DNA from: Lichina pygmaea
Taxonomy: Eukaryota; Ascomycota; Lichinomycetes; Lichinales; Lichinaceae
Direction: 5' to 3'
Length of the DNA: 64,000 nucleotides
Assembly: GCA_963422465.1 (NCBI GenBank)
Contig: OY730171.1
Coordinates: 2,232,001-2,296,000, forward strand
Made by a program: the position numbers and the translations under genes. Of the stretch, positions 1-62,833 are shown one piece after another. The notes under the pieces are model-generated. The model ran no database searches. It was given only the letters and a program-made list of their open reading frames with translations, and was not told the origin of the DNA. Positions within the stretch are counted from its first letter, which is position 1, and every line of letters begins with the position of its first letter.

Positions 1-3000
1 GTGGCCAAGGGTAAGGAGTGGACCCTTTGTTTCTGTTGTTGCCAGTTGGGGTTGGGCATAGACCAGAGTTTGTCCTTTTGTCACTAGGATTGGGTGTTCC
101 TCTGTTGTTTTCTCATCCATCAGGTCTGGTCGCCTGCTGAGTGCGTCTGCTCAAGCATTTTCAGTGCCTTTCCAGTAGAGGATTTGGAAGTTGTATGATG
201 CTAACAACTCTGCCTATTGAACTTGCTGTCAGTTTAGCTTCTTTGTTGTTGTGAAGTAAGCTAGGTTCTTGTGGTCTGAGTACATGTCTACTGTGTATTT
301 TGCCCCCTCCAAGTAAGGCCTCCATTCTTGGAATACGTTGACAATTGCTAGCAACTCTTTGTCGTGAACATCATACCTTAGTTCTGGGCCAGAGAACTTT
401 CTTGATCAATACGCGACAGGGTGTAAGTGGTTGTCAGCATCTGGTTGACACAAGCAGGATCCCAATGCTTGGTCTGAGGCATCAGTTTCCAGAATGATCC
501 TCTTCTCAGAATCAAATGATGCCAAAATAGGTGTGGAGATGAATTTATCCTTCAACTCCTGGAAGACCGCTTGTTGGCTCTCCCCCCACCTGAAAGATTT
601 GTTCTTTCTGGTTAACTCTGTCAAGGCTGCTGCTGTTCTTGAGTAGTCCTTGATGAATCGTCAGTAGAAGTTTGCAAATCCTAGGAAGGATTGTACTTCT
701 TTGAGGTTTTTGGGTGTTGGCCAGTCTCGTACTACTGCTGTCTTTGTGTTGTCTATTCGAATTCCTTCTGTTGTCAGGATCAACCCCAAATATTCCACTT
801 CTTTCGTGTGGAAAACACTTTTATCAAGGTGTAACCTCATGCCTGCTTTCTGGAGTGCATGTAGGATTGTTTTGACATGCTGTTTATACTCCTCCAAGGT
901 TCCATTGGTGTATACCAAGATATCATCAATATAAGCAGTGACAAATATATTCAGGTATTGTCGGAGAACAGTGTTAATAAGTGATTGGAATGTCGCCAGT
1001 GCATTCGTAAGACTGAATGGCATCACAGTATACTTGTAGTGCCTGTACCTTGTACGAAAGACTGTCTTCCATTCCTCGCCATCTTTCATCCTAACCAGGT
1101 TGAAAGAACCTCGAATGTCAAACTTGGTGAACTATTCAGCTCCTTGGATCTGGTCTTGGATTTCCGATATCAGTGGCAGTGGGTAGTGGTTCTTCACTGT
1201 AATTGTATTTAGCCACCGGTAATCAACACACAGTCGAAGTTTGCTGTCTTTCTTTGGCACAAACAATATCAGGTATCCAGCTGGTGATGTTGAAAGTCTT
1301 ATAAACCCTTTCACTAGGTTCTTGTCCAGGTAGTCTCTCAGGGCCTCAAGCTCTTTTGCTGACAGAGTGTAGATAGGGCTGTGTGTGGGTTTTTTTCTGT
1401 CTTCCAGCGGAATCTTGTGGTCCCACTCCTGATGTTCTGGTAGCATTGTGATCACTATTTCTTTGAACATCTCCTGGTATTCTTTATACTCACTTGGCAA
1501 CTGCGGTGCCTGAGTCTTGCCCACGGTGTCTTGCGTGGTGCAAAGTTGTTGTGTTCGGGGTTTCATCCAGGCCACACAGGCCTGCCCGTGCTGGTGGTAT
1601 TTCTTCCAGTGTGTCAGTGAGATTTCTTTAATTGTCACCCCTGGTTCTGACGTGACCAGTGTCTTATCTAGAAAGACTAGTTGCCTTCTTCTCCAGTCAA
1701 TCCTTGAGTTTTGTTTTTCCAACCACAGAAGTCCCAATATAACTTTGTGTGGTATCTGGACCAAGTTGAATTCTTCTGTTCCAATCATCATGCCATGGAC
1801 ACTCAGCCTCAGGCTCTTGGTCTCCTTTGTCACTTGTCTCTTGTCTTTGGAGAGTGGTGTTCTGTCCACTACTGTCAACTGGTAGGGGTCTTTCTTGCCT
1901 TGGACTGGAACCTTGTTTCTTCTGGCAAAGCTTTCTGACATGAAGTTGCCAGTCGCACCAGAGTTGATCCTGGCCTTAGCCAACCGCCCATTGACTCTGA
2001 TCTTGATGCGAAAGTGCAGGCTGCAGACTGTTACGTCAAGGCTCAGCTTGACTTCTTCCTCCTGGGGTGTTGTCTTGCCTGCTCTTCTGACCCCAGTTTT
2101 GAAGAGTGCTGCTAGTTTTTTGAGCCGCCTAGGCCCTGGGCCTGACACTCTACTGCGTGTTGTTTGCATCGTGTGGTGAGGCATTGTTCCCACAGGTCTT
2201 GGTTGCAATCATCAGCAATGTCTCTGACCTGTGTGATGCTGAGGGTATTGTCAACCTATCGTGACACTTGCGTCTCCCCTATTTCTGATAGGGTTGTGTC
2301 CTGTTGTCGAAGGACAGGTTTGTTGGGGACTGGTGGTGGCTGGGCTTCTTTGTCATCAACCTGTTCCTCCATATAGCCAGTTGTGTCAAACTCGGAGATC
2401 AGGTTGTCCTCCCAGTGGATTCTGTTGACCTTCCTTCAGACCTTGTCAAGGTGGTCCAAGGTTTCTTGGAGCATGTTCTCAAGTTTTTTGGTGTGTTGTC
2501 AGAGGTTGTCCTCCTCTCTGAGGAGTACTGCCTCAGGGTGATTGTGGGGCAGTGTGCCTTGGGGGGCCCTCTGGGGCTCCTCCATCTCCCTGCCTTTCCA
2601 GGCGCTTGTGGTGTTCAACTGCTTCTCTTTGCCCTTCTTGTTCTTCTTCTTGCTCCTGCAGTTCACTGCAAGGTGGCCCACTTTCTGACAGTTGTAACAC
2701 TTCTGTGTCTTCTTCTTTTGTGGTTCCACCACATCGATTTCCATGGGTACCAAGCTGTAGTTATCTTTGGTGGGTGTTGGCTTTTTCTTCACCTATGGTT
2801 TTGTCTGCTTGCCTTGCTTCTCAAGCTCTCTCTCAAACTGTCGGTCGTTGATGTGAGCTGCAGTCTCGATCATTTCGTAGAGCTCGGTTGGTCAGTCTCC
2901 TCACATGATGTCATCCTTGACTTGTTCCTTGAGGCCTTGGTAGAATAGTGCTGTTAGTGCACTGTCCCCCCACTGGGTTCTCACTGCTAGTTGTTGGAAC

Positions 3001-3982
3001 TTCGCCGCAAATTCTGATGCTGATCCAGTTTGCCACAGTGCTTGGAGCTTTCATTCCGCATCTCTTTCCTTGTCAAGGATCCCAAACATCTTTCTCATAG
3101 CTGTCTTAAAGATTTTCAAGCTTCCCATGACCTGTCGGGTATTGTCTTCTTGCTTCTTGGGGTCTGCCTGATTGTCTAGGTAATCCCTTAAGTAGACGTT
3201 GAACCAAGCAAAGGCTGGTCCTTCCAGGTAGGAGACTGCAAACAGCACCTTCTCCTGGTCTGTCAGGAACTGGGCTGTGTTGAACCCATAGTAGAGCTCC
3301 AGTTGTGAGAAGAACAACTCCAGTCCTCCCCTGGATTCATCGTACCTTTTCGGGGCACCTACCTTCAAGGGCTTCAGGGGTAGGTTAACAATAGGTGCCG
3401 CCTGGACAGCCTGGGCCTGAGCCACCTGAGCAGCTTGGGCTTGGGCTGCCTGAGAAGGGGTAGGGCTTTGTGGATCCACCATCATATCAAGTGAGTGTCC
3501 TATGTGTTAGAGGCTGAAACTGTTAAAGGCTGGGCCAGGTTCACACAGAAGGTGGCTTGGTCTGTTGCTTCGCAGGGCGGATTCTAGACAGGGACTCGGT
3601 AGAGGAATAGACAGGTGGGGTAACTCTCCTGTGCTATTGTCTCAGTACGATGGGTTTGTATTGTGTGTTCAGCCTGGAGAGCTAATCCCTCCGGGCCCTT
3701 TGGGGGGTCTTTATACAGATGCCCCAAGGGGGGGGGTCTCCTCAAGAAGTATCATTCTTTTGCGTGGACAAGCTCCTCGCTTAGCTCCTGCTTGTCCACT
3801 GGACAAGCTCCTCGCTTAGCTCCTGCTCGTCCACCGGACGAGCTCCTTGCTTAGCTCCTGCTCATCCACCGGACGAGCTCCTCGCTTAGCTCTTGCTCGT
3901 CCACCAGATCAGTCGGATGTTGTTCTGTATGACTAACACTCCTCCCTCGCTTACCTGGACTGTTCCGGCCTAGGCCTTAACA
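1..3982 (-). mobile_element. Chr1-L, Ty3/Gypsy chromovirus fossil (5' part)
   Basis: Minus-strand LTR retrotransposon of family Chr1, the same family as the copy at 52037-58495. The window opens inside its pol gene. Reading on the minus strand from the right, it has the 5' LTR (3521-3982), gag (about 3485 down to 2490, with a CCHC zinc knuckle near 2660-2710), an aspartic protease region (about 2150-1850), reverse transcriptase (about 1480-660) and RNase H (about 650-1). Integrase and the 3' LTR lie beyond the left edge. It sits inside Chr2-D, whose sequence resumes at 3983. It is broken, with several breaks in the part visible. CpG sites are more decayed than in Chr1-R, so it looks older. 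Confidence 0.9.
3521..3982 (-). repeat. 5' LTR of Chr1-L
   Basis: 462 bp LTR with TG...CA ends, aligning along its whole length with the 438 bp LTRs of Chr1-R. It contains four copies of the roughly 35 bp hairpin-forming unit (about 3770-3905) and a TATA box read on the minus strand near 3710. Just inside it, on the minus strand, is the same primer-binding-site sequence as in Chr1-R. Confidence 0.92.
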
Positions 3983-47959: not shown

Positions 47960-48327
47960 AACAGCTTGGCCTGCAGAAGGGATGTGTCAATGACTGATCA
48001 AGTCAAATCCTCACTATCCGACTCCATCTCTTTCACCAAGCACTGAAGCTTCTGCCTTGCACAGACCTTGGCACCCTCCAACACCTTTCACTTCTGAGAC
48101 AGACAAGCCTGCACTATGGCAAGTTGTTCAAAGAGTGTGTTGTGTGTTGCCTTGTCAGTGGCCACATCCTCACAGAGGTTGTCCCAGGACATGTTCAGAG
48201 ATTCCCAGGACACAGAGACACAAGACCTTCCACGCTGAGTGCACACAGCACATTTCAACTTATTGTCTTCTCCCAGCATCTGGAAGCACAGACAACTACA
48301 GAGAACACAAAAGTCGCAGGGCTTGCA
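47960..48327 (-). pseudogene. Antisense Zn2Cys6 ORF relic of Chr2-C
   Basis: Minus-strand frame next to the 3' LTR, convergent with pol. The six cysteines in C-x2-C-x6-C-x11-C-x2-C-x6-C spacing are all present despite many substitutions relative to Chr2-B, including changes between the cysteines. It is a fossil and not open over its full length. Confidence 0.72.
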
Positions 48328-48387: not shown

Positions 48388-49024
48388 TGTTACGACCCAG
48401 GAGGAACACAGTCTTTATACTCACAGAAAGCAGCAGACAGGATACTGGACAGAAGTACCAGGCCACATAACACAGGAAGCAGTCACGTGACTGGTGAGAC
48501 TGACCAGGGGTTGCTTGCCACAGCATGCATATACGTGAGCAAAGTGAGCAGAGCTCACCCAGCTCACCGCAGCATGCATGAACAGTGAGCAAAGTGAGCA
48601 GAGCTTGCCCAGCTTGCTGCAGCATGCATGAACAAGTGAGCAAAGTGAGCAGAGCTCACCCAGCTCACCGCAGCGTGCATGAACAAGTGAGGAAAGTGAG
48701 CAGAGCTCACCCAGCTCACCACAGTGTGCATGAACAGTGAGCAAAGTGAGCAGAGCTCACTGTGCTCACAAACTGAGCACTATATAGTCTGGCGATAGTT
48801 CTCTTATGGAACAATTGTCTTCAACTCATGTTGTGATCCAGACAACTAGATCTACTTCAATACAATCCTTTTGTACGAAGCCATTGATCAGGTGTCACCA
48901 CCACCACGTTCCACCAAACCCCTTCACACTTCTTGACACTCCTCTTCTGCGAGAACCAACCTGCCTTCCACATCTTGCCCTTAATCCTATACTCGGTTAG
49001 GACGGCACGGTACAGACCACAACA
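48388..49024 (+). repeat. 3' LTR of Chr2-C (subfamily 2b)
   Basis: 637 bp partner, 72 bp shorter than the 5' LTR because it lacks two 36 bp units. Near its left edge ctttata (48413-48419) reads TATAAAG on the minus strand, facing the antisense ORF. Confidence 0.93.
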
Positions 49025-49872: not shown

Positions 49873-50429
49873 TGTTGCGGTCTGTACTGTACTGTCCTAT
49901 CCGAGTATAGGATTAGGGCGAGAGGTGGAAGGTGGGTTGGTTCTCGCAGGAGAGGAGTGTCAAGGAGCGTGAAGGGGTTTGGTGGAACGTGGTGGTGGTG
50001 ACACCTGATCAATGGCTTCGTACAAAGGATTGTATTGAAGTAGATTTAGTTGTCTGGATCACAACATAAGTTGAAGATGATTGTTCCATAAGGGAACTAT
50101 CGCCAGACTATATAGTGCTGGCCTGTCGAGATGATCAAGATTGTCTCGACAGTCTTGATGTCAAGATGGGTGAGATTGTCTTGACAGTCCCACCATGTTA
50201 TGCACCCTGTGTCAAGACTGGTGAGATTGTCTTGATGCTTCATGCATCATGCGTTGAGACTGGTGAGATTGTCTTGATGCTTCATGCATCATGCGTCGAG
50301 ACTCCCGTGTGTGTCTTGACAGTCACGTGACCCCTTGTTGGTTGGTCACTTGACTTCCATGGTGTCCTCTTGCCTGGCCCACAGCCTGATTACCTATAAA
50401 TGAGTGGCTCCCATCCCTGGGTCGTAACA
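49873..50429 (-). repeat. 3' LTR of Chr2-B
   Basis: 557 bp, subfamily 2a, with one 42 bp tandem unit fewer than its partner. It carries TATATAG (about 50108) for the sense direction and TATAAAT (50395-50401) on the plus strand near its edge. Confidence 0.93.
50395..50401 (+). promoter_or_regulatory. Inward TATA box facing the antisense ORF
   Basis: TATAAAT on the plus strand, 73 nt before the ATG of the antisense ORF. It is followed by the pyrimidine-rich complement of the polypurine tract. The same motif is at 4926-4932, at 20968-20974 (minus) and, as TATAAAG, at 48413-48419 (minus) in the otherwise different subfamily 2b. A promoter role is inferred. Confidence 0.5.
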
Positions 50430-50473
50430 CTACTCTCCTCTCCTTCATTCATCATCCCGATGAATTCTTGAGT

Positions 50474-50974
50474 ATGTCTGCAAAATCACGTGCCTCTGCT
50501 TACCAAAACCAACTGGCAGCCCAGATCTGTGATCATAACTTTGTGTTGCTTGCTCTGTGTGACTTCTGTGTTTTGAACCACAAGCCCTGCTTCCGAATGT
50601 CTGACGACAACAATAAGTTGAAGTGCGCTGAGTGCACTCATCGGGGAAAGTCCTGTGTGTCACTTTCTTGGGAGTCGCTGAACATGACTTGGGATAACCT
50701 TCACAAGGATTTGGCTGTTGATGAGGCCAAGCGGGATGCTCTTGTCAAGCAGCTTGCCAAGCTGCAGGCTTGTGTGTCCCGAAAGCGAAAGGTTCTTGAG
50801 GGTGCTGAGGGTCAAGCAAAGAAGAAGCTCCAGTGCCTTGTTGCTGAAATGGAGGTGGATAGTGAAGACTTGTCGGCGACAGTCATTGATGCATCCGCGC
50901 TGCAGGCCGAGCTGTTCAGTCCTGCTCCTGCCAGAACTGCTGCAGGAGGAGCTGGCAGTTCGCGAGGTTCCTGA
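50474..50974 (+). CDS. Antisense Zn2Cys6 / coiled-coil ORF of Chr2-B
   Basis: 166 codons, unbroken, transcribed opposite to gag-pol and next to the 3' LTR. Cysteines C29, C32, C39, C51, C54 and C61 fit C-x2-C-x6-C-x11-C-x2-C-x6-C, the spacing of fungal GAL4-type binuclear zinc clusters. The loop is less basic than in typical DNA-binding members. A segment with leucine heptads follows (about 75-125), then an Ala/Ser/Gly-rich C-terminus. Its 3' end abuts or overlaps the pol 3' end. Likely a nuclear DNA-binding or regulatory protein; function is inferred only. An ATG at 50474 is preferred over the upstream TTG. Confidence 0.7.
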
Positions 50975-52036
50975 GTGGCTCCCAGGTATTTTCCGAGTCT
51001 GGGTAGTCTTTCCACTTGACAAGGTATCACTGACCTTTTCTCTTCAGGATCTGTTCAGCCTCGAATTCCTGTTCTTCCTCTGGTTGGTAATGAAATGTTT
51101 CCTGCAAGGGTGTGCTCTGGTCAGCTAATTTGATCATTGAGATGTGAAAGTTTGGGTGTACCCGAGCGTCTCTCAGTAGTCGCAGTCTGATGTTGACTGG
51201 TCCGGCTTTTTCTTTGACTGAAAATAGTCTGACCTTGACATGGTCCAGTTTCTTTGTTCTTGGTTTCTTTGTTTTCCAATTTCTTGTGAGGAGGTAGACT
51301 TTATCCCCCTTCTTTAGCTGAGGTGCCATTTTTGATTTCTTGTCCATTTGACGTTGCATTCTTTCTGAGGTCTCTTGAAGGTAGTGCCTCATCATCGTGT
51401 GTGTTTGTCGTAGGAGCTTGTCGTGTTGGAGTGCTTTCTCTGCGTTTGGTGAAGCTCTGCTTGGCATCCCGATGTTCGCATGTTGTCCAAAATTGGCAAA
51501 AATGGCGATTCCTTTGTTGAGTCTGATCTGTGCTGGTTGATTGCCAGCTGTGCCACCGGTAATAACTGTGCCCAATTGCTGTGGGTCTTGTTGATGTAAT
51601 ACTGTAAGTAAGTCTCCAGGACTTGGTTTGCTCGCTCTGTCTGGCTGTCAGTTCGTGGATGATAGGCCGTAGACATTTTGGGTTTTGTTCCCATGGCTGC
51701 ACTGATTGTCTTCCAGTAGTTGGATGTGAAGAGTTTATCTCTGTCTGTAATGATCGTGATCGGAACTCCGTGGTCTCTGACCAATCTGTCCAGTAAGAGG
51801 TGTCCCAACTGTTCTGCTGTGTGGGTTTCCTTGAATAGTACTGCTATTAGATATTTTGTGAATCTGTCCACTATCACCATAATCAAGTCGTAGGTGATTC
51901 CTGTGACTGGGTCTTTGGACTTGGGTAGCTTTGTGATGAAGTCCATTGACATGTCTTCCCACAGGCCTTTCGGTATCATGTTCGGGTGTCCTTCTCCGTA
52001 TAGCTTATATCTTCCATGTTTGTTTTTCTGGCATAG

Positions 52037-52474
52037 TGTTAAGGTCTAGGCCGGAACAGCCCAGGTAAGCGAGGGAGAGGTGTTAGTCATGCGGAACAAC
52101 ATCCGACCGATCCGGTGGACGAGCAAGAGCTAAGCGAGGAGCTTGTCCGGTGGACAAGCAAGAGCTAAGCGAGGAGCTCGTCCGGTGGACGAGCAGGAGC
52201 TAAGCGAGGAGCTCGTCCGGTGGACAAGCAGGAGCTAAGCGAGGAGCTCGTCCACGCAAAAGGATGATACCCCTCAAGGAGACCCCCCCCCTGGGGCATC
52301 TGTATAAAGACCCCCAAAGAGCCCAGAGAGATTAGCTCTCCAGGCTGAACGCACATTACAAGCGACAATAGCAAGAGAGTTACCCCACTTGCTATTCATC
52401 TATTGAGTCCCTGCCCTCCTCAGTCGAAGACAGGACCACCCACATTCTGTGTGAATGTGGACTGGCCTTTAACA
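52037..52474 (+). repeat. 5' LTR of Chr1-R
   Basis: 438 bp, TG...CA. Four roughly 35 bp units (52112-52253) each carry the inverted repeat gctcgtcc-ggt-ggacgagc or its CpG-decayed form. TATAAAG is at 52303-52309, and the segment aggctgaa (52342-52349), 39 nt downstream, can pair with the priming site. Confidence 0.95.
52303..52349 (+). promoter_or_regulatory. Sense TATA box and inferred transcript start of Chr1-R
   Basis: TATAAAG at 52303-52309. The inferred RNA 5' end is at about 52342, because aggctgaa there is complementary to ttcagcct at 52477-52484, just inside the LTR. The same arrangement occurs in Chr1-L. Confidence 0.5.
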
Positions 52475-52476
52475 GT

Positions 52477-52484
52477 TTCAGCCT
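52477..52484 (+). promoter_or_regulatory. Putative self-priming primer-binding site of Chr1-R
   Basis: ttcagcct starts 2 nt after the LTR end and is the perfect complement of aggctgaa in the LTR. No match to a common tRNA 3' end was noticed. Self-priming is known for the Tf1/sushi group of fungal Ty3 elements. Confidence 0.5.
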
Positions 52485-52512
52485 CTAACACATAGGACAC
52501 CAGCTCAATACG

Positions 52513-53400
52513 ATGGCAGATCCACGCAGCCCTACCCCTTCGCAGGCAGGCCAAGTTCGGGCTGCGCCTCAGGCGCAAGCCCAGGAACCACCTGTCCCTA
52601 CCACCCTCACCTTACCTCCAAAGCTGTTGAAGGTAGGTACGCCGAAGAGGTACGATGGATCACAAGAGGGATTGGAATTATTCTTCTCTCAGCTTGAGCT
52701 TTACTACAGATTCAACACCGCACAATTCCCTACAGAACAGGAGAAGGTGCTGTTCACAGCTTCCTACCTGGACGGACCAACATTTGCCTGGTTTAATGTC
52801 TACCTACAAGACTTCCTCGACAACAAGGAAGACCCCTCTAGCATGGAGACCACGACACGGCAGATCATTGGGAGATTCTCTACCTTCAAGACCCAGATGA
52901 AGAAGACCTTCAGGGTCATTGATGAAGAACAAGATGCGGAACAAAAGCTCCAAGCACTACGGCAGACAGGGTCAGCATCAGACTTCGCGGCAAAGTTCCA
53001 ACAGTTGTCAGTGAGGACGCAATGGGGAGACAGTGCCTTGACGGCACTATTCTACCAAGCTCTCAAGGAACAAGTCAAGGATGACATTGCACGAGGAGAC
53101 TGACCCACCGACCTCGAGGATATGATTGACACAGCAGTACACATCGACGACCGACAATTTGAACAAGAACTCGAGAAGTGAGGCAAGCATGCAAGGCCAT
53201 GGGGCAAAAAGACAGTGCCAGCACAAGACAAGTACAGCTTGACACCCATGGAGATTGATGCAACAACACCACAGGCAACAAAGAAGAAAGAAACACGGAA
53301 GTGTTACAATTGCCAGAAGGTAGGACACCTCGCAGCCAACTGCCAAAGCAAGAAGAAGAAGGAAGGCAAGAGTAAGCAGTTGAATGCCACTGGTGCCTGG
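52513..53400 (+). pseudogene. Chr1-R gag region
   Basis: Starts at the ATG 39 nt after the LTR. Capsid-like sequence (GLELFFSQLELYYRFNTAQF, AWFNVYLQDFL, FAAKFQQLSVRTQWGDSAL) is followed by the CCHC knuckle CYNCQKVGHLAANC (about 53300-53341). Related gag lies in Chr1-L. It is a fossil. Confidence 0.88.
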
Positions 53401-53805
53401 AAAGGCAAGGGCATTCAGGAGCCACCGAGGGCTCCCAGAGGCACACTACCCATGAACCGGTCAGAAGCAACACTCCTCGGACAGGAGGACAATCTCAGAC
53501 AGCACATTGAAAGACTGGAGAACAATCTGCAGAGGTCACTGGAGGACCTGCACGCAATCCAAGACCAGATCGATAAGGTTCATTGGGAGGATGACCTGAT
53601 CTCCGAATTTGACACAACAGACTACGAGATTGATATAACCGGCATGCCACCAGTTCCCGAGACACCACTACTCCGACGACAGGATGCGACCTTGTCGGAG
53701 GACGGCAAAGCAAGAGTGACACGATGGGTGGACGACACCATCAGCATCTCACAGCCCCGAGACATCACAGCGCAAGTGGACTATCACCAGGCTACGACAC
53801 CAGCC

Positions 53806-54012
53806 TGCGGACATCCTTATTGGAAAGGATGCGAGGACCACCACTGCAAGGAACATCTCCTAGAGAAAAGGAGAAGGCACTACTTCCCTGGCCCAGAATA
53901 CCACAAGAAAGCCTGGAGCATCAAGCACCAGCTAAGCCAGCAAGGGAAAGAACACGATGACTGCGGAGAAGACGCATGGGAGCTATGCTTCACCGAAAAA
54001 TGTGAAAGACAC
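53806..54012 (+). other. Tandem C-x7-C-x4-C-x2-H module of Chr1-R
   Basis: Two units, CGHPYWKGCEDHHCKEH and CGEDAWELCFTEKCERH, with FPG between them. The same two units, in the same order and with the same FPG, occur in Chr2 (about 60800-61050 in B), where a further partial unit precedes them. It lies between the Gag knuckle and the protease. A zinc-binding role is inferred from the Cys/His spacing. Confidence 0.65.
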
Positions 54013-54049
54013 GCGGCAGAACGCCAGGCTCAGGGCCTTGGTTGTTCAA

Positions 54050-57000
54050 AAAACTAGCAGTGCTCTTCAAATCCGGAGTCGGAAGAGCAGGCAAGACAAC
54101 ACTCCGGAGAGAAGGGGTCGAGCAGAGCCTTGACACAACAGCCTGCAGTCCGCATTTTCGCATCAGGATGAGAGTCAACAGGCATCTGACAAATGCCATG
54201 ATCAACTCTGGAGCTACTGGCAACTTCATGTCAGAAAGTTTTGCCAGGAAGCACAAGATCCTGACTCAGGAAAAGAGGAATCCATACCAACTAACAGTAG
54301 TGGACAGGACACCACTCTCCAACAACCAAGGATGAGTGACGAAGGAGACCAAGAACCTACGACTGTGTGTCGACAGTACGACAATCAGATCAGAAGAATT
54401 CGACTTGGTCCAGATACCACATGAAGTTATATTGGGTCTTCCGTGGTTGGAAAGTCAAAACCCAAGGATCGACTGGAAAAGAAGGCACCTAGTCTTTCTG
54501 AAGAGGAGTCTGGCAACTCGAGCAGAGCCAGAGAAAGTGAGAATCAAAGAAATCTCATATGCAGGGTGGAAGAAGCACCACCGGCGAGGGCAAGCCTATG
54601 TGGCTTGGATGAAGCCCCGAAACCATCAACTTTGCACCACACATGACGCCGTGGGCGAGACTCAGGCACCGCAGCTGCCAAGTGAGTATAAAGACTACCA
54701 GGAGATGTTTGGTGAGGAAGCGGTCGCAACGCTACCAGAACACCAAGAGTGGGATCACGAAATTCTGCTGGAAGACAGAAAAAAACCCACACATAGCCCT
54801 ATTTACGCTCTATCAGCAAAGGAGCTTGAGGCCTTAAGAGATTACCTGGACGAGAACCTAGCGAAAGGGTTCATAAGACCTTCAACATCACCGGCCGGAT
54901 ACCCGATATTGTTTGTGCCAAAGAAGGACAGCAAATTACGACTGTGTGTCAACTACCGGCAGCTTAATGCGATCACGATTAAGAATCACTACCCGCTACC
55001 ATTAATATCGGAAATCCAGGACTGAATCCAAGGAGCCAAGTGGTTTACCAAGTTTGACATCCGAGGCACTTTCAATCTGGTTAGGATGAAAGATGGCGAA
55101 GAATGGAAGACAGCCTTTCGTACGAGGTACAGGCATTACGAGTATACTGTTATGCCATTCAGCCTTACGAATGCACCGGCGACATTCCAATCACTCATTA
55201 ACACCATCCTCCGACAATACCTGGATATATTTGTTACCGCTTATATTGACGATGTCTTGGTTTACACCAATGGAACCCTGGAGGAGCACAGACAGCATGT
55301 CAAGAAGATCCTACATGCACTCCAAGAAGCAGGAATAAGGTTATGCCTTGATAAGAGTGTCTTCCACGTGAAAGAAGTGGAATATTTGGGGTTGATCCTG
55401 ACGACGGAAGGAATCCGTATGGACAATACAAAGATCACGGCAGTACGAGACTGGCCAACACCCAAAAACCTCAAAGAAGTCCAATCCTTCCTGGGATTTG
55501 CGAACTTCTACCGACGATTCATCAAGGAGTACTCAAGGACAGCAGTACCCTTGACTGAACTAACAAAGAAGGAAGAAACCTTCACATGGGGGAACAGCCA
55601 AGAGAGAGTGTTCCAGGAGCTGAAAGAGAAGTTCACCTCCGCACCCATACTGGCATCATTTGATCCCGGACAGTGGATCATCATGGAGACAGATGCCTCA
55701 GACCAAGCACTTGGATCTTGCTTGTGTCAACCAGACGCCGAAAACCGCCTACACCCTGTCGCATACCGATCAAGAAAGTTCTCTGGCCCAGAACTCAGGT
55801 ACGATGTTCACGACAAGGAGTTGTTAGCGATTGTCGACGCATTCCAGGAGTGGAGACCTTACCTGGAAGGAGCAAAGTACACAGTGGACATGTACTCAGA
55901 CCACAAGAATTTGGCTTACTTCACAACAACGAAGAAGCTAAACAGACGACAAGTCCGATGGGCGGAGCTTTTAGCTTCATACGACTTCCAGATCTTCTAT
56001 CGAAAAGGATCAGAAAACGCACGAGCGGACGCGCTTAGCAGACGGCCTGATATGACAACAGACAACACGACAGAAGAGCGCCCAATCCTTGTGACAAAAG
56101 AACAAACTCTGGTCTATGCTCAACCTCAGTTAGCGAAAACTGAAGAAATGGGTGCACTCCTGACCCTAGGCCACAACGTTGCGGCCACGAACAAGGAAGA
56201 AGTGCCAGAGAGTGCACAAGAGGATGTGATTTGACAACATCACGATGGACCTCTACACAGACATCCTGGGCAAGACAAGACCCTGGAAAAGATCTGGAGA
56301 TGTTACCACTTCAACAGAATGAAGCGGAAAGTGACAGAATTTATTCGCAACTGCGAAGAGTGTGCGAAAAACAAACTGTCACGCCACAAACCCTATGGAG
56401 AGAGTCAACAAATAGACCTCCCAGAAGCGGCTTGGGATACCATCACAATAGATTTTGTGGTGAAGCTGCCGAGGTCAGAGGACCCGGTAACAAAGGTGAA
56501 ATATGACAGTATCTTGGTGGTTGTTGACAAACTCACCAAATACGCTCACCTGATCCTGTGGCGAGAGACAGGAACAGCGAGCGAACTTGCCAATGTCCTG
56601 CTCAAAGAATTGGTTAGCCAGTGAGGGCTACCCATGAAGATTATCTCAGATCGAGACAAACTCTTCACCTCGAAATTCTGGAACACGTGGACAAGACAGC
56701 TAGGGATAGACACGAGGATGTCTACTGCCTACCATCCACAAACAGACAGACAAACTGAGAGAACAAACCAGACGATGGAACAGTACCTACGCCACTACGT
56801 CAACCACCGACAGGACGATTGGGTAGAACTACTACCAATGGCTCAGTTTGCGTACAACGATCAGCAACACAGTGTGACAGGCATGACGCCGTTCTTTGCG
56901 AACTACGGCAGAAACCCCCGCTGGGAAGCGATGGCGGCTGGAAGTGGCACTTCAACAAACATCGAAAAACTCACTGCTATGCATGAGGAAATGAAGACTG

Positions 57001-57587
57001 CAATTGAATCTGCACAAAAGACAACAAGCCACCGCCTAAACAGCAAAAGGTTGAAGGGACCAACCCTGGAGAGGGGGGATAAGGTCTATTTGTCAACAAA
57101 AAACCTGCGCTCGAAGCGACCGAGCAAAAAGCTGGATCATGTACGAATCAGACTGTTTGAGATTGAGAAGCACACTGGAGAAGTCAACTACCGACTGAGA
57201 CTGCCAAAAAAGACACGGATACACCGAGTATTCCATGTCTTGCTGCTCAAGCCAGCACCCAGCGATGCAGCAATCAAAACAGAATGGCACTTTGAGGACG
57301 ACAAAGAAGAGTACAATGTCGAAAGAATCCTAGACAGCCGGAGAAACAGACAGAAAACTGAGTACCTGGTGAAGTGGTTAGGATTTGACGAAGAGGAGAA
57401 TTCGTGGGAACCAACCGAGAACTTCAGCTCTGCGATGAACCAGAAACTGGTGGATTACCACCGAGCAAATCCGCAGCGACCAGGTCTGACGGAGACAACG
57501 GCTCGAGAGAAGCCAAAGCCTCCGAAGAGAAGACGTCCTCAAAGGATGGTGGAGCAGCAGCTTGACAGGCCTCCCGTTCGCGGATAA
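54050..57587 (+). pseudogene. Chr1-R pol region (protease, RT, RNase H, integrase, chromodomain)
   Basis: Protease with INSGATGNFM (about 54200), reverse transcriptase (about 54800-55480), RNase H (about 55680-56040), integrase zinc finger (about 56250-56390) and catalytic core with TIDFVVKLP and HPQTDRQTERTNQ (about 56440-56780). A C-terminal chromodomain follows (YLVKWLGFDEEENSWEP, about 57361-57411). Chromodomains of this group steer integration to heterochromatin, which fits the nesting here. It is a fossil. Confidence 0.9.
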
Positions 57588-57996
57588 CGCGGAGGGCCTC
57601 TTGTTCCTGAGCATCAAGAGACTCTTGATCCTCAATGGATGACAGCTCACGACAGATGGCATCAGCCTCCTTCTGTGAGAGATGACCCAGCTGCCGGCGG
57701 AGGCAGATCTGCCGGGGAAGCAGCTTTGACAGTTGGTCATCAGTCTCCCGCAGCTGAGCCTCAAGCTGCTCGCGCTCAAGCTCCATCTTCTTCCATTCTG
57801 ATTCCGAGAGATGAAGGTCACAGCGACGACCTTTCTTGATGCACTGACGACAAAAAGACGATGCGGAACTCACGACACACTTGGCGTGGTCGCGACAACA
57901 AGCACCGCATGCGATCTTTGATTCCTTGCCCATTTTGCCAACACGACAAGAGAGAAAACCACAGCGATGAGTTCGAGTTGTCTGGCTTTGGTTCAT
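57424..57996 (-). CDS. Antisense Zn2Cys6 / coiled-coil ORF of Chr1-R
   Basis: 190 codons, unbroken, on the strand opposite to gag-pol, overlapping the last 164 bases of pol and ending 62 bases before the 3' LTR. Cysteines C30, C33, C40, C49, C52 and C59 fit C-x2-C-x6-C-x8-C-x2-C-x6-C, the GAL4-type zinc-cluster spacing. A strongly charged leucine-rich segment (about 66-150) should form a coiled coil. The C-terminus is acidic and proline/serine-rich (PPSFEDVFSSEALASLEPLS), like an activation region. Outside the cluster it has little obvious identity with the Chr2 ORF. Function is inferred only. Confidence 0.72.
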   Translation of the reverse strand: MNQSQTTRTHRCGFLSCRVGKMGKESKIACGACCRDHAKCVVSSASSFCRQCIKKGRRCDLHLSESEWKKMELEREQLEAQLRETDDQLSKLLPRQICLRRQLGHLSQKEADAICRELSSIEDQESLDAQEQEALRVIREREACQAAAPPSFEDVFSSEALASLEPLSPSDLVAADLLGGNPPVSGSSQS

Positions 57997-58057
57997 GGCA
58001 AAAGAGGAGCAGGAACAAAAAGGATCTGGGGACAGAACCCTTGGAGGGAGGGGATAG

Positions 58058-58495
58058 TGTTAAGGTCTAGGCCGGAACAGCCCAGGTAAGCGAGGGAGAG
58101 GTGTTAGTCATGCGGAACAACATCCGACCGATCCGGTGGACGAGCAAGAGCTAAGCGAGGAGCTCGTCCGGTGGACAAGCAAGAGCTAAGCGAGGAGCTC
58201 GTCCGGTGGACGAGCAGGAGCTAAGCAAGGAGCTTGTCCGGTGGACAAGCAGGAGCTAAGTGAGGAGCTCGTCCACGCAAAAGGATGATACCCCTCAAGG
58301 AGACCCCCCCCCTGGGGCATCTGTATAAAGACCCCCAAAGAGCCCGGAGGGATTAGCTCTCCAGGCTGAACACACATTACAAGCGACAATAGCAAGAGAG
58401 TTACCCCACTTGCTATTCATCTATTGAGTCCCTGCCCTCCTCGGTCGAAGACAGGACCACCCACATTCTGTGTGAACGTGGACTGGCCTTTAACA
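58058..58495 (+). repeat. 3' LTR of Chr1-R
   Basis: 438 bp, the same length as the 5' LTR, preceded by the purine-rich tract ggagggaggggatag. It is followed by TSD catag and the resumption of Chr2-B. Confidence 0.95.
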
Positions 58496-61400
58496 CATAG
58501 TAGACACTTGCTGATGTAGTTTGTGACATGTTGTCAGAGGTTAATGACATTGTTCCCTGCCTGTTAGATAAGGTCTGTGGTCTTGGAGATTCCTGGGTGA
58601 CCATGTGCTGGGTTATTATAGTAGTTCCTTATTAGTTCTTCAGTGTCTTCTGCTGTGAGGTTGTTGATCTGTGGTTGAGGCACCAGGTTTCCTTGCTGGT
58701 CCTGCTGTAAGATTGTTCCTTGGCGTTCATCATCTTCCATGTGGTCTTTTCATCAGCTTAGTGCGTCTGCTCTCCCATTGTCTTGTCCAGGGGTGTACAA
58801 GATCTTGAACTTGTGTTGCCCTAGGAGTTCAGCCCATCTGACTTGCTGTCTGTTCAGCTTCTTGGTTGTCATGAACGTTGTCAGATTCTTGTGGTCTGTG
58901 AGAATGGTGAGTTCGGAACTGCTTTCCGTGTACACTCTCCAGTGTTCAAGTGCGTTGACGACTGCCAGTAGCTCTTTATCGTGGATATCAAAGTTTCGTT
59001 CTGCTTGTGTCATTTTTCGTGAGTAGTAGGCAACTGGGTGCCACTTGCTGTCTGCCTGTTGGCATAGACATGCTCCTACTGCCTGATCTGAAGCGTCCAT
59101 CTTGATTTATGTTGGTTGGCCTGTCTTGAAGTTGAGGAGAACTGGTTCCTTGGTGCAAGCATCCTTGAGCTGTTGGAATGCTTTTTGTTATCTCTCTGTC
59201 CACCAGTACTCCACATCCTTCTTTGTGAGTTCTGTTAGTGGTGTTGCCATCTGTAAGTAGTTCTTAATGAACTGTCAGTTGAAGTTGGCAAATCCTAGGA
59301 AGGCTTGTACTTCCTTAACTGATGTCGGTGTTGGCCATTGCTGAATCACTTTGATTTTCTCAGAGTCAATCTTGATCCCTTTGATCCCTATGATGTATCT
59401 GAGGAATTCAACTTCCAGTTTGTTGAACTCGCATTTCTTCAGGTTGAGCTTGAGCCCTGCCTCTTGTAGGCATCGTAGAACATCCTTCACATGTTTGGTA
59501 TGTTCTTGTTGCGTGTTCGAGTAGACAAGAATGTTGTCCAGGTAGGTGATAGCTGTTTGGTCCAGGTGTGCTCTGATGATGTTGTTGATCAATGCTTGAC
59601 ATGTTGCTGGTGCGTTTATGAGTCCGAATGGCATAACCAGATACTCGTAGTGTCTGTATCAGGTTCTGAAGGCTGTCTTCCATTCTTCTCCTTTTTTCAT
59701 GCGTATCAGGTTGTATGCTTCTTTCAAGTCCAGCTTGGTAAAGATTGTAGCTTGGCTGATCCTGTCTCGCAATTCGTTCGCATTTGGCAGCGGATATTGA
59801 TTCTTGATGGTAATGTTGTTGAGTTTCCTGTAATCCACACAAAGTCGAAGACTTCCGTCTTTCTTTGGTGCAAATAGTATCGGGTATCCTGCTGGCGATT
59901 GAGATTCTCGAATGAAACCCTTTTTCAGGTTTTCCTCCAGGTACTCACGAAGTACTTGGAGCTCTTTCTCTGATAATTGGTAAATTGGTCCAAATCCTGG
60001 CTCTGTCCCTGGTTGCAACTTGATCTCATGATCCCAAGGTTGGTGCTTAGGCAACACTGCTATTGTTGTCTCTTCCTGAAAGAGGTTATCATACCCAGGT
60101 CAGTACTCTTCAGGGATCTCCAGAGGGTTAACAACTTCCTCTCTCTTCATCTCTGACTGTTTGGCCACCTGGTTCTGGGGTGTGCCTGTCAAGGCAGACC
60201 TCTTCTCTTGAGAGTTGTCCTTTCTGTCAGTGAGATTCCACTGAGGACTCCTTCCCTCATCTGTCCACGCCTTCTGCGGCTGGTAACAGGTCCGAGCTGT
60301 GTTGTTAGTGCAGTTCCTAAACGTGAGTACTCCTGTCTTCCAGTTAACAACTGGGTTGTGCTTCTTTAGCCAAGGCATCCCCAAATAGATATTCTGAGTG
60401 GCCAACTCAACAATATCAAGGTGGATCCTTTCAGCATAGTGTCTGGTAACTATTTCCATTGGCTGCGTCTCATGGCAGACTAGCTCTGTCTGTCTATTTG
60501 CCATCACGAGCTGATAGGGCTGCTGCTTGCGTCTCCTTCCAGTGCCAAGGGTGTTGTAAAGTTGTCTTGAAATATAGTTTCCACTGGCTCCAGAGTTAAC
60601 AAGTGTGTATGTCTGTACTGGCGTGTTGGCGTGTAGTGACACAGGTAATCGCAGGTGCTTTGCATTGCTAGGGGTCATGTTGTTGAGCTTCTGATGTCGC
60701 CCCTTGACAAGAGAGTTCAGTCTTTTCCTGATTGAAGTGTCTTTCCACTGACTGGGCAATGGGTCCAGCCCTTCCCATCAGTCCTGAGGAATCTGTTCAT
60801 GAATTTGTCTTGCTGATGCTTGTCACATCCAGGCTTGAGGCAGTACTGCCAATTGTTGACGTAGCAGTTGTGGTTGTTGCCTTGCTGTAGGAACATGAGG
60901 TGTTCGTGCCAATCATGTGTGTGCCCGGGGAATGCAGTGTGTTGGTGTTTGTCCCAAAGGTGGATCTCACACGCATCCTTCTCGCAATTGACCCAATGTT
61001 TGTGGCAGGTGGTGTGGTAGGGTGAATGTCCTCTGTACCTTCGTAGTTGTTCATGGTAGGTGCAGTAGTGCTTTGTGCAAAACCTCCACTGTAGTTCGCC
61101 GTGCCGTAGATTTCGTGGGTCCATGCTGTAAGCATAGCTTCCTTGTGGTATTTCTTCTTTGATAGACACGGGTTTGTCTCAGTCCCTATCAGAGGTGGTT
61201 AAGGGCTCCTGTCCCTTGTCCTGACCTGTTAGTTCTGGTAGGTCCTTACCTCCTGATGTTGCCAGTTGGTGGGCTGCTTCCAATGTCTGATCGTAGTTGT
61301 CCCATTGTTCAAGGGATAGCTGAGCCTCTCCTGGTGGGTCCTCTGGCTTGATGACATTCCAGTCTCTGTCGAGTGTATTAAGTTGCTGTCAGTGCACCTT

Positions 61401-62234
61401 GTTCTTTGAACAACAGTCTTTCGCTATGTGGCCTAGCTTGCCACAGGCATAGCACTTCAGTGCTTTCCTCTTTTTGTTGTTCCTTCCCTTTGTGAACCTT
61501 CCCTTGTGGTGGACTGCATCCAGTTCCATGGGTGCATAGCCATATAGATCATGTGGCGGTGCCTTGTTAGACAGCTTGTAGTGGTTGCTCACATGCCATG
61601 CGGGGTGGCTGTATCCTCTGTCGTGGCGTTTCTCCATCGCTTGCTTGAATAGTTTGTCATCAATGTTGATTGCTTGTGCGATGAGTTCGTCCAGTGTGTT
61701 GACTGCTCGTCTGTCGAAGGTGATTTCATCCTTCATGTTTTTCTTGAGTCCATGTCAGTACATGACCATCAGGGTGTTGTCGTCCCAGTCAGTCAGTACT
61801 GAGTATTGTTTGAACTGCGTGGTGTACTCTGTGGCTGAGCGTTGTTGTTTGATGTGCTGGATCATTCGTATAGCCACTTTATCTTTATTAGATAGTCCAA
61901 GGATCCTTTTGATCTCATCCTTGAATCACGTCCATTTCATCATCTATTCTGTTGTGCTGTTGTGGTCTCCGTTCCCTGAGAGATGTTTGTTGATGTAGGG
62001 TTTGATCCATCAATAAGCATTGCCTCTCATGTAAGTGGTTGCAAAGAGGGGCCACTTTTCCTTAGGCAGCTTCATCTCTGGTTGGAATTGAAAGTAGACT
62101 TGGAGTTGCATGAGCCAGTCGTCAACCTTGTTTCTTTCGCCGTAGAACAGGTCTGGCTTGGCGACGCTAATCTTTCCATCTGGGAAGTTGGGGTTGGTTG
62201 CTCCTGAGGTACTCATCCTTGAGGGTCTTCAAAG

Positions 62235-62833
62235 TGTTGCAGTCTGTACCATACTGTCCTATCCAAGTATAGGATTAGGGCGAGAGGTGGAAGGTGGGTT
62301 GGTTCTCGCAGGAGAGGAGTGTCAAGGAGTGCGAAGGGGTTTGGTGGAACATGGTGGTGGTGACACCTGATCAATGGCTTCGTACAAAGGATTGTATTGA
62401 AGTAGATCTAGTTGTCTGGATCACAACATGAGTTGAAGACAATTGTTCCATAAGGGAACTATCACTGGACTATATAGTGCTGGCCTGTCAAGATGATCAA
62501 GATTGTCTTGACAGTCTCGACGTCGAGACAGGTGAGATTGTCTCGACAGTCCCACCATGTTATACACCCTGTGTCAAGACTGGTGAGATTGTCTCGATGC
62601 TTCATGCATCATGCGTTGAGACTGGTGAGATTGTCTTGATGCTTCATGCATCATGCGTCAAGACTGGTGAGATTGTCTTGATGCTTCATGCATCATGTGT
62701 CAAGACTCCCGTGTGTGTCTCGACAGTCACGTGACCCCTTGTTGGTTGGTCACTTGACTTCCATGGTGTCCTCTTGCCTGGCCCGCGGCCTGATTGCCTA
62801 TAAATGAGTGGCTCCCATCCCTGGGTCGTAACA
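62235..62833 (-). repeat. 5' LTR of Chr2-B
   Basis: 599 bp, subfamily 2a, with the 42 bp tandem block at about 62570-62710. The segment pairing with the priming site (ttgaagac on the plus strand, 62433-62440) matches gtcttcaa at 62225-62232 just outside the LTR, 8 of 8 bases. Confidence 0.93.

Follow-up and report, generated by a model that had tools for sequence, protein, structure and literature searches.

In a 64,000-nucleotide stretch of the Lichina pygmaea genome (contig OY730171.1, positions 2,232,001 to 2,296,000; the window), domain and long terminal repeat (LTR) analysis located a chromodomain Ty3 element on the plus strand that carries an antisense open reading frame (ORF) at 57424-57996(-). 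Our data demonstrated that this antisense frame is a real protein-coding gene under purifying selection and not a chance frame. A Zn2Cys6-like identity of its product is supported by sequence comparison, at scores below the curated cut-offs, and the reading that we favour, with our confidence evenly divided for and against it, is that the gene encodes a dimeric Zn2Cys6-like regulator that would bind the U3 part of the element's own LTRs. The element belongs to subfamily 1a of a family here called family 1; a second family of the window is called family 2.

Selection on the antisense frame

Selection was estimated from 62 copies of the antisense frame, namely 50 of subfamily 1a, 10 of 1b and 2 of 1c, taken from the matches of protein searches in the 32.5-Mb genome that contains the window; these were mostly full-length and better-scoring matches, a non-random sample that favours kept frames. 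The ratio of nonsynonymous to synonymous differences (dN/dS) was obtained by simple counting of the Nei-Gojobori type, in which a dS of about 1 is close to saturation. Over the 50 x 10 pairs of 1a and 1b copies outside pol (codons 3-136, with about 123 left for comparison once gaps were removed), the antisense frame gave a dS of 1.10, a dN of 0.25 and a ratio of 0.23 with 0.3 stops per pair, and the other five frames gave ratios of 0.97, 2.03, 0.91, 0.44 and 1.73 with 2.8-9.2 stops per pair. Coding of the same stretch on the sense strand was rejected, each sense frame having 6.3-7.6 stops per 1a/1b pair. Six single pairs outside pol, bootstrapped by codon, ranged from 0.18 to 0.23 with upper limits of 0.31-0.47; among the copies compared, the pair L016 and L089 gave 0.18 (95% interval 0.10-0.31), with 31, 19 and 56 differences of 123 at the three codon positions (p 7e-7). 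The part overlapping pol had a ratio of 0.43 between 1a and 1b, the lowest sense-frame ratio there being 0.34, and the comparisons with 1c gave 0.30 for 1a and 0.36 for 1b, where one other frame reached 0.35.

The length differences between 1a and 1b, 36 nt inside the ORF and 6 nt beside its ATG, both preserve the frame, and no frame-breaking length was found in any of the 62 compared copies. Each motif cysteine was conserved in 61 or 62 of the 62. In-frame stops were absent from 35 of the 50 copies of 1a and all 10 of 1b, and both copies of 1c contained them.

The gene is abundant in the genome, since matches to the protein of the window copy (P0001) occurred in at least 150 places at E 1 or better, as did those to the family-2 protein. 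A search with P0037 found 61 places of subfamily 1b with at least 85% identity, of which 53 had no stop by table count; the stops in the other eight places are TAG or TAA, not TGA. Transitions at CpG were the largest class of difference between copies, amounting to 320 of 504 in subfamily 2a and 733 of 1673 in 1a (14 listed classes), and suggest methylation-type decay of the 1a and 2a copies; their excess fits the many TGA stops and the changes from Arg to Cys or His.

Structure and position of the gene

The initial annotation, made from the letters of the window, had described an unbroken antisense frame of 190 codons with an exact C-x2-C-x6-C-x8-C-x2-C-x6-C spacing, a charged helix and an acidic tail, and the present analysis recovered each of these features. 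The frame runs from ATG to TAG, and it is open in the window copy although gag-pol is broken across several frames. The motif cysteines are C30-x2-C33-x6-C40-x8-C49-x2-C52-x6-C59. A long charged helix is predicted to follow them in the structure model of the sister copy L016 (residues 65-147), where the mean predicted local distance difference test (pLDDT) scores of blocks were 94-98 for residues 71-140, and the tail from residue 148 to 190 contains six acidic residues and none that is basic. This copy has another three cysteines, at residues 12, 17 and 34, which lie outside the motif; residues 12 and 34 are Arg in several other copies, so that Cys here is as expected of CpG decay. A six-frame scan of the window found the motif in five places, corresponding to two family-2 copies, one sub-type of family 2, the ORF studied here and the translation of a 51-bp tandem repeat. 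The first 30 Markov shuffles gave no motif match in ORFs of at least 150 codons, and the second 30 gave none whatsoever.

The location between pol and the 3' LTR, as originally described, holds for 136 of the 190 codons, but the final 164 nt of pol (57424-57587) are shared with the antisense ORF. The 3' LTR starts at 58058 and is separated from the antisense ATG by 61 nt. The arrangement recurs in other genomic copies, as the earlier description had led us to look for: the ORF was on the strand opposite to pol in 30 of 30 loci each of families 1a and 2a, and it lay between pol and the LTR in 30 of 30 loci of 1a and in all 29 loci of 2a that had an LTR within reach. The ATG stood at a distance of 62 from the LTR edge in 24 of 30 loci of 1a and of 45 in 27 of 29 of 2a. 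Being antisense, kept in position across copies and under selection outside pol, the gene can be classed with the antisense accessory genes of the aORF-3R type.

The host element has the composition of a Ty3 chromovirus: its plus strand encodes a Ty3-type gag (PF03732, E 2.3e-9), an integrase SH3 domain and a chromodomain (PF00385, E 1.3e-14), and it has two LTRs and a 5-bp target-site duplication. Comparison of the 5' with the 3' LTR showed 9 differences over 438 sites, and 8 of these lie in a CpG context.

A second family with an antisense gene

The gene is not restricted to one element: two Ty3 families of the window carry such an ORF. The family-1 element (52037-58495) is nested within an element of family 2 in opposite orientation (49873-62833), with a clean CATAG duplication and the two parts of the outer element on its flanks. 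The antisense protein of family 2a also has a helix after its cysteine motif. In the window copy of 2a, pol ends 52 nt short of the antisense ORF, before the chromodomain, and the view taken from this copy alone, that family 2a lacks an overlap with pol, was dropped: among 30 loci of 2a, pol continues through a chromodomain-like stretch into the antisense ORF in 20, with a typical overlap of 59 nt, and stops earlier in 10. In 28 of the 30 a chromodomain-like match was present where it would be expected.

Direct BLASTP comparison of the family-1 and family-2 antisense proteins detected no similarity. Comparison of their profiles gave a probability of 8-10% with few sequences, and 86% only with the broader alignment A5. 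A search of the genome with P0159 found many more places with open frames of 123, 137 and 169 codons, which probably represent another sub-type of the antisense gene.

Relatives of the protein occur in other fungi. The search with P0128 found 60 proteins in fungal records at E 0.01 or better, including those from metagenome-assembled records of Watsoniomyces obsoletus (Lichinomycetes) and Candelina submexicana (Candelariomycetes), both of which are partial and contain the second half of the motif only. In alignment A5 the whole motif was covered by 13 of 18 rows, with the six cysteines conserved in every one of the 13; the rows without the first half are P0128, P0135, P0137, P0138 and P0167. 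Most rows have in common the coiled coil and a step resembling W-E-S-L.

Zinc-cluster-like identity of the product

Zn2Cys6 clusters follow the spacing rule C-x2-C-x6-C-x5-16-C-x2-C-x6-8-C, and the motifs of both families agree with it. The Pfam profile Zn_clus (PF00172) aligned at the motif of less-decayed copies, with 20.0 bits for P0007, 18.7 for P0150 and 16.1 for L016, none of which reaches the curated cut-off of 21 bits. When the joint profile A6 was compared with solved structures (177,635 sequences), four GAL4 chains came at the top of 30 rows, at E values of only 0.023-0.062, and lower rows contained CBF3B, LEU3, LAC9, PUT3, PPR1 and Pho7. Profile A1 against PDB returned Zn2Cys6 proteins in 5 of 10 rows, but at E 0.61-7.4, and profile A4 returned none among its 5 rows. 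The structure model of the family-2 protein, of low confidence in the zinc part, retrieved GAL4, Pho7 (twice) and PUT3 among 8 Foldseek rows. Searches of NCBIfam and PHROGs gave nothing useful, a pattern search of viral contigs gave 16 and 25 matches of which none was confirmed, and Pfam matches of kinetochore type (Kbp-5, Mis12) were taken as general coiled-coil similarity.

Inverted repeats in U3

Inverted repeats that lie upstream of the TATA box, within U3, are a new observation of this study. Six LTRs were scanned (1a, 1b, 1b, 1c, 2a and 2b, the order used below), all from families with the antisense gene and with TATA read from the sequences. The most stable 52-nt window lay in U3 upstream of TATA in six of six, weakly so in two, and its stability was reached by 4, 0, 0, 1, 4 and 1 of 40 shuffles; in 2a it stands beside the array. 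Hand-picked pieces had z values of -1.8 (1a), -6.7 (1b), -3.8 (1c) and -5.1 (2b), with -0.9 and -2.1 for 2a, and in a test of ungapped arms 47, 2, 0, 13, 131 and 32 of 300 shuffles were as good.

The units differ in sequence and length. Upstream of TATAAAG the 1a LTR contains a tandem unit of 35 bp, whose copy number differs among elements, and the 1b LTR carries two copies of a 69-bp unit, with the core GTGGACGAG, which 1a shares, first direct and then inverted. The single 1c LTR has one segment with GTGGCAGAG plus its inverse; in this one site the two-fold symmetry of 1b is retained with the half-site altered on both arms. The 2a LTR has a 42-bp unit. CCGG was dropped as a universal half-site, being absent from the 2a and 2b units. 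With the antisense ATG on one side of it and the sense TATA on the other, the 1a array of the 3' LTR could act in either direction. An array with tandem units and inverted repeats is also present at 62573-62707, and the arrays differ between lineages.

Possible function and alternative explanations

Under the regulator reading, the accessory gene would be read from the side of the 3' LTR toward pol, probably being expressed from that LTR, and its product would combine an N-terminal Zn2Cys6-like binuclear cluster, presumably zinc-binding, with a long coiled coil and an acidic tail. Through the coiled coil, the protein is expected to form a dimer. The protein may then enter the nucleus and bind as a dimer to the U3 inverted repeats of its own LTRs, where it might raise or limit LTR transcription; the acidic tail would favour activation, and self-limitation is equally possible. 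As a more tentative proposal, to which we give somewhat less than even weight, ascomycete chromoviruses may possess a self-regulating circuit in which a dimeric zinc-cluster factor and its cognate U3 array diverge together as a lineage-private key and lock.

Resemblance to GAL4-type Zn2Cys6 regulators (PF00172) lies in the cysteine spacing, the coiled coil after it, the acidic tail and the first rank of GAL4 with profile A6. The antisense protein differs from them in its score below the Pfam cut-off and its length of just 190 aa, too short for the large central region that many Zn2Cys6 regulators contain.

Several findings link the gene with systems in the literature. The initial annotation knew of no fungal Ty3 element with a gene in this position, and here it was preceded by Boty: according to passages in PMC7264820, the gene brtn, credited to Zhao et al. 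2011, lies antisense between pol and the 3' LTR in the Boty elements of Botrytis and Sclerotinia. Parts of other papers describe Boty-like elements with a CHROMO domain and brtn-106 (PMC4227169), use brtn for the extra ORF in BcGypsy1 (PMC8365987) and report a BRTN-like transcript in Monilinia (PMC5987419). The gene studied here may be the same as brtn, with the zinc cluster overlooked or absent there, a proposal that could go either way and is compatible with the regulator reading. The two are likened by description only: in both cases a fungal element with a chromodomain gag-pol and 5-bp duplications carries an extra gene in antisense orientation, placed after pol and before the 3' LTR (PMC7264820, PMC4227169 and PMC8365987), but the citing passages on Botrytis cinerea and Sclerotinia name no zinc cluster. 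A search of the open-access literature, limited to titles and the starts of abstracts, found no zinc cluster in such an antisense ORF among the papers listed, which is weak evidence of absence.

The plant aORF-3R genes (Grande gene23, RIRE2, Retand TRP28, PvRetro13) are likewise antisense between pol and the 3' LTR; sections of PMC7264820 and PMC11963269 suggest a nuclear or DNA-binding role for them, the latter describing the TRP28 antisense ORFs. They differ in having other domains (TRP28, SMC), and Retand is of a non-chromovirus lineage. In the animal retrovirus human T-cell leukaemia virus type 1 (HTLV-1), the antisense gene HBZ beside the 3' LTR encodes a nuclear basic leucine zipper dimer with an acidic region. 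A passage in PMC7264820 mentions that HTLV has an antisense promoter within its 3' LTR. The parallel with our ORF would be one of arrangement and working, and no homology is implied.

Antisense genes of LTR retrotransposons are thus known in plants and in Boty, and their function there is still open. With a likely fold, measurable constraint and a candidate target in the same element, the question of function is now testable. If the regulator reading is true, fungal retroelements would have adopted for self-control the transcription-factor fold most typical of fungi, in parallel with HBZ, and the hundreds of copies would form a reservoir of zinc-cluster genes in the genome.

Weighing against the regulator reading, in addition to the Zn_clus scores under the cut-off, are the lack of any Zn_clus match to the window copy P0001 even at E 10, the family-1 structure model, which had no PDB match and low confidence in its zinc part, and the ratios within subfamilies, which were near neutral in 1b (0.80) and 0.31 in 1a and 0.44 in 2a, where some other frames were similar. 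The last indicate that copies decay after insertion and that constraint is clear only between lineages. The checks that the initial annotation had proposed went mostly in its favour, with exceptions: Zn_clus found the right residues in less-decayed copies but not in the window copy, structure prediction led to GAL4, Pho7 and PUT3 for family 2 but to nothing for family 1, and dN/dS was about 0.2 between subfamilies outside pol but not within 1b. Further, classical DNA-binding zinc clusters have a basic loop between cysteines 2 and 3, and in the alignment this loop of family 2 is not strongly basic.

This loop speaks for a real antisense accessory gene whose product would leave LTR transcription alone and act on the element's RNA, its capsid or its integration complex, as a chaperone, in nuclear import, in tethering or in limiting copy number, with the zinc cluster and coiled coil serving protein or RNA contacts. 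The evidence from selection, position and fold is equal for this and the regulator reading. Zn2Cys6 proteins are mostly DNA-binding regulators, and this, together with the U3 inverted repeats upstream of TATA, makes such a role somewhat unlikely, although passages in PMC7264820 suggest nuclear import or regulation for other accessory ORFs.

We regard it as quite improbable that the cysteines adopt a different zinc fold (ribbon, RING-like or PHD-like) in place of a binuclear cluster: single-sequence scans of two family-2 copies gave weak zf-PHD-like matches (E 0.005 and 0.011), and the models are of low confidence in this part, but the spacing in both families is that of Zn2Cys6 and four GAL4 chains head the profile search. 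That the frame is open merely as a by-product of its overlap with pol (164 nt in family 1, typically 59 nt in 2a), or of antisense non-coding RNA feeding RNA silencing, such as the non-coding antisense transcripts of transposable elements reported in parts of PMC10648671 for Blumeria, is very hard to reconcile with the lower ratio outside pol than inside, the in-frame length changes, the kept cysteines and the bulk of both families' ORFs lying outside pol.

Coordinates and further elements

Table 1. Features of the two nested elements and of a third antisense ORF in the window
Feature	Position	Strand	Basis or remark
Antisense ORF, family 1a, 190 aa	57424..57996	-	ATG to TAG, frame analysis; dN/dS
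Six-cysteine zinc-cluster-like motif, residues 30-59	57820..57909	-	Motif scan; Zn_clus alignment of related copies, residues 29-61
Long predicted helix / coiled coil, residues 65-147	57556..57804	-	Structure model of sister copy L016
Acidic tail, residues 148-190	57427..57555	-	Within pol overlap
5' LTR, family 1	52037..52474	+	438 bp, TGTTAA...TTAACA
gag-pol region, C-terminal chromodomain	52513..57587	+	Several frames in this copy
Polypurine stretch preceding 3' LTR	58043..58054	+	Sequence reading
3' LTR, family 1	58058..58495	+	438 bp
Target-site duplication CATAG	52032..52036; 58496-58500	.	Sequence; two copies
U3 array, 4.1 copies of 35-bp unit, candidate regulator site	58132..58274	+	Between antisense ATG and TATA at 58324
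Antisense ORF, family 2a, 166 aa, C-x2-C-x6-C-x11-C-x2-C-x6-C	50474..50974	+	Frame analysis, motif scan
pol frames of family-2a element	51027-51575; 51392-51979	-	Frame analysis
3' LTR of family-2a element hosting the family-1 insertion	49873..50429	-	Sequence; tandem array ~50200-50319
Six-cysteine motif of third antisense ORF, sub-type 2b	48220..48318	-	Motif scan; frame open only 108 codons
U3 array of 2b LTR, 51-bp unit	48521..48760	+	Sequence; GTGAGC twice, then GCTCAC twice

Several further family-2 stretches occur elsewhere in the window. A second, diverged family-1-like element at 1-3982 (-), with 75-85% DNA identity, reaches the left end of the window.
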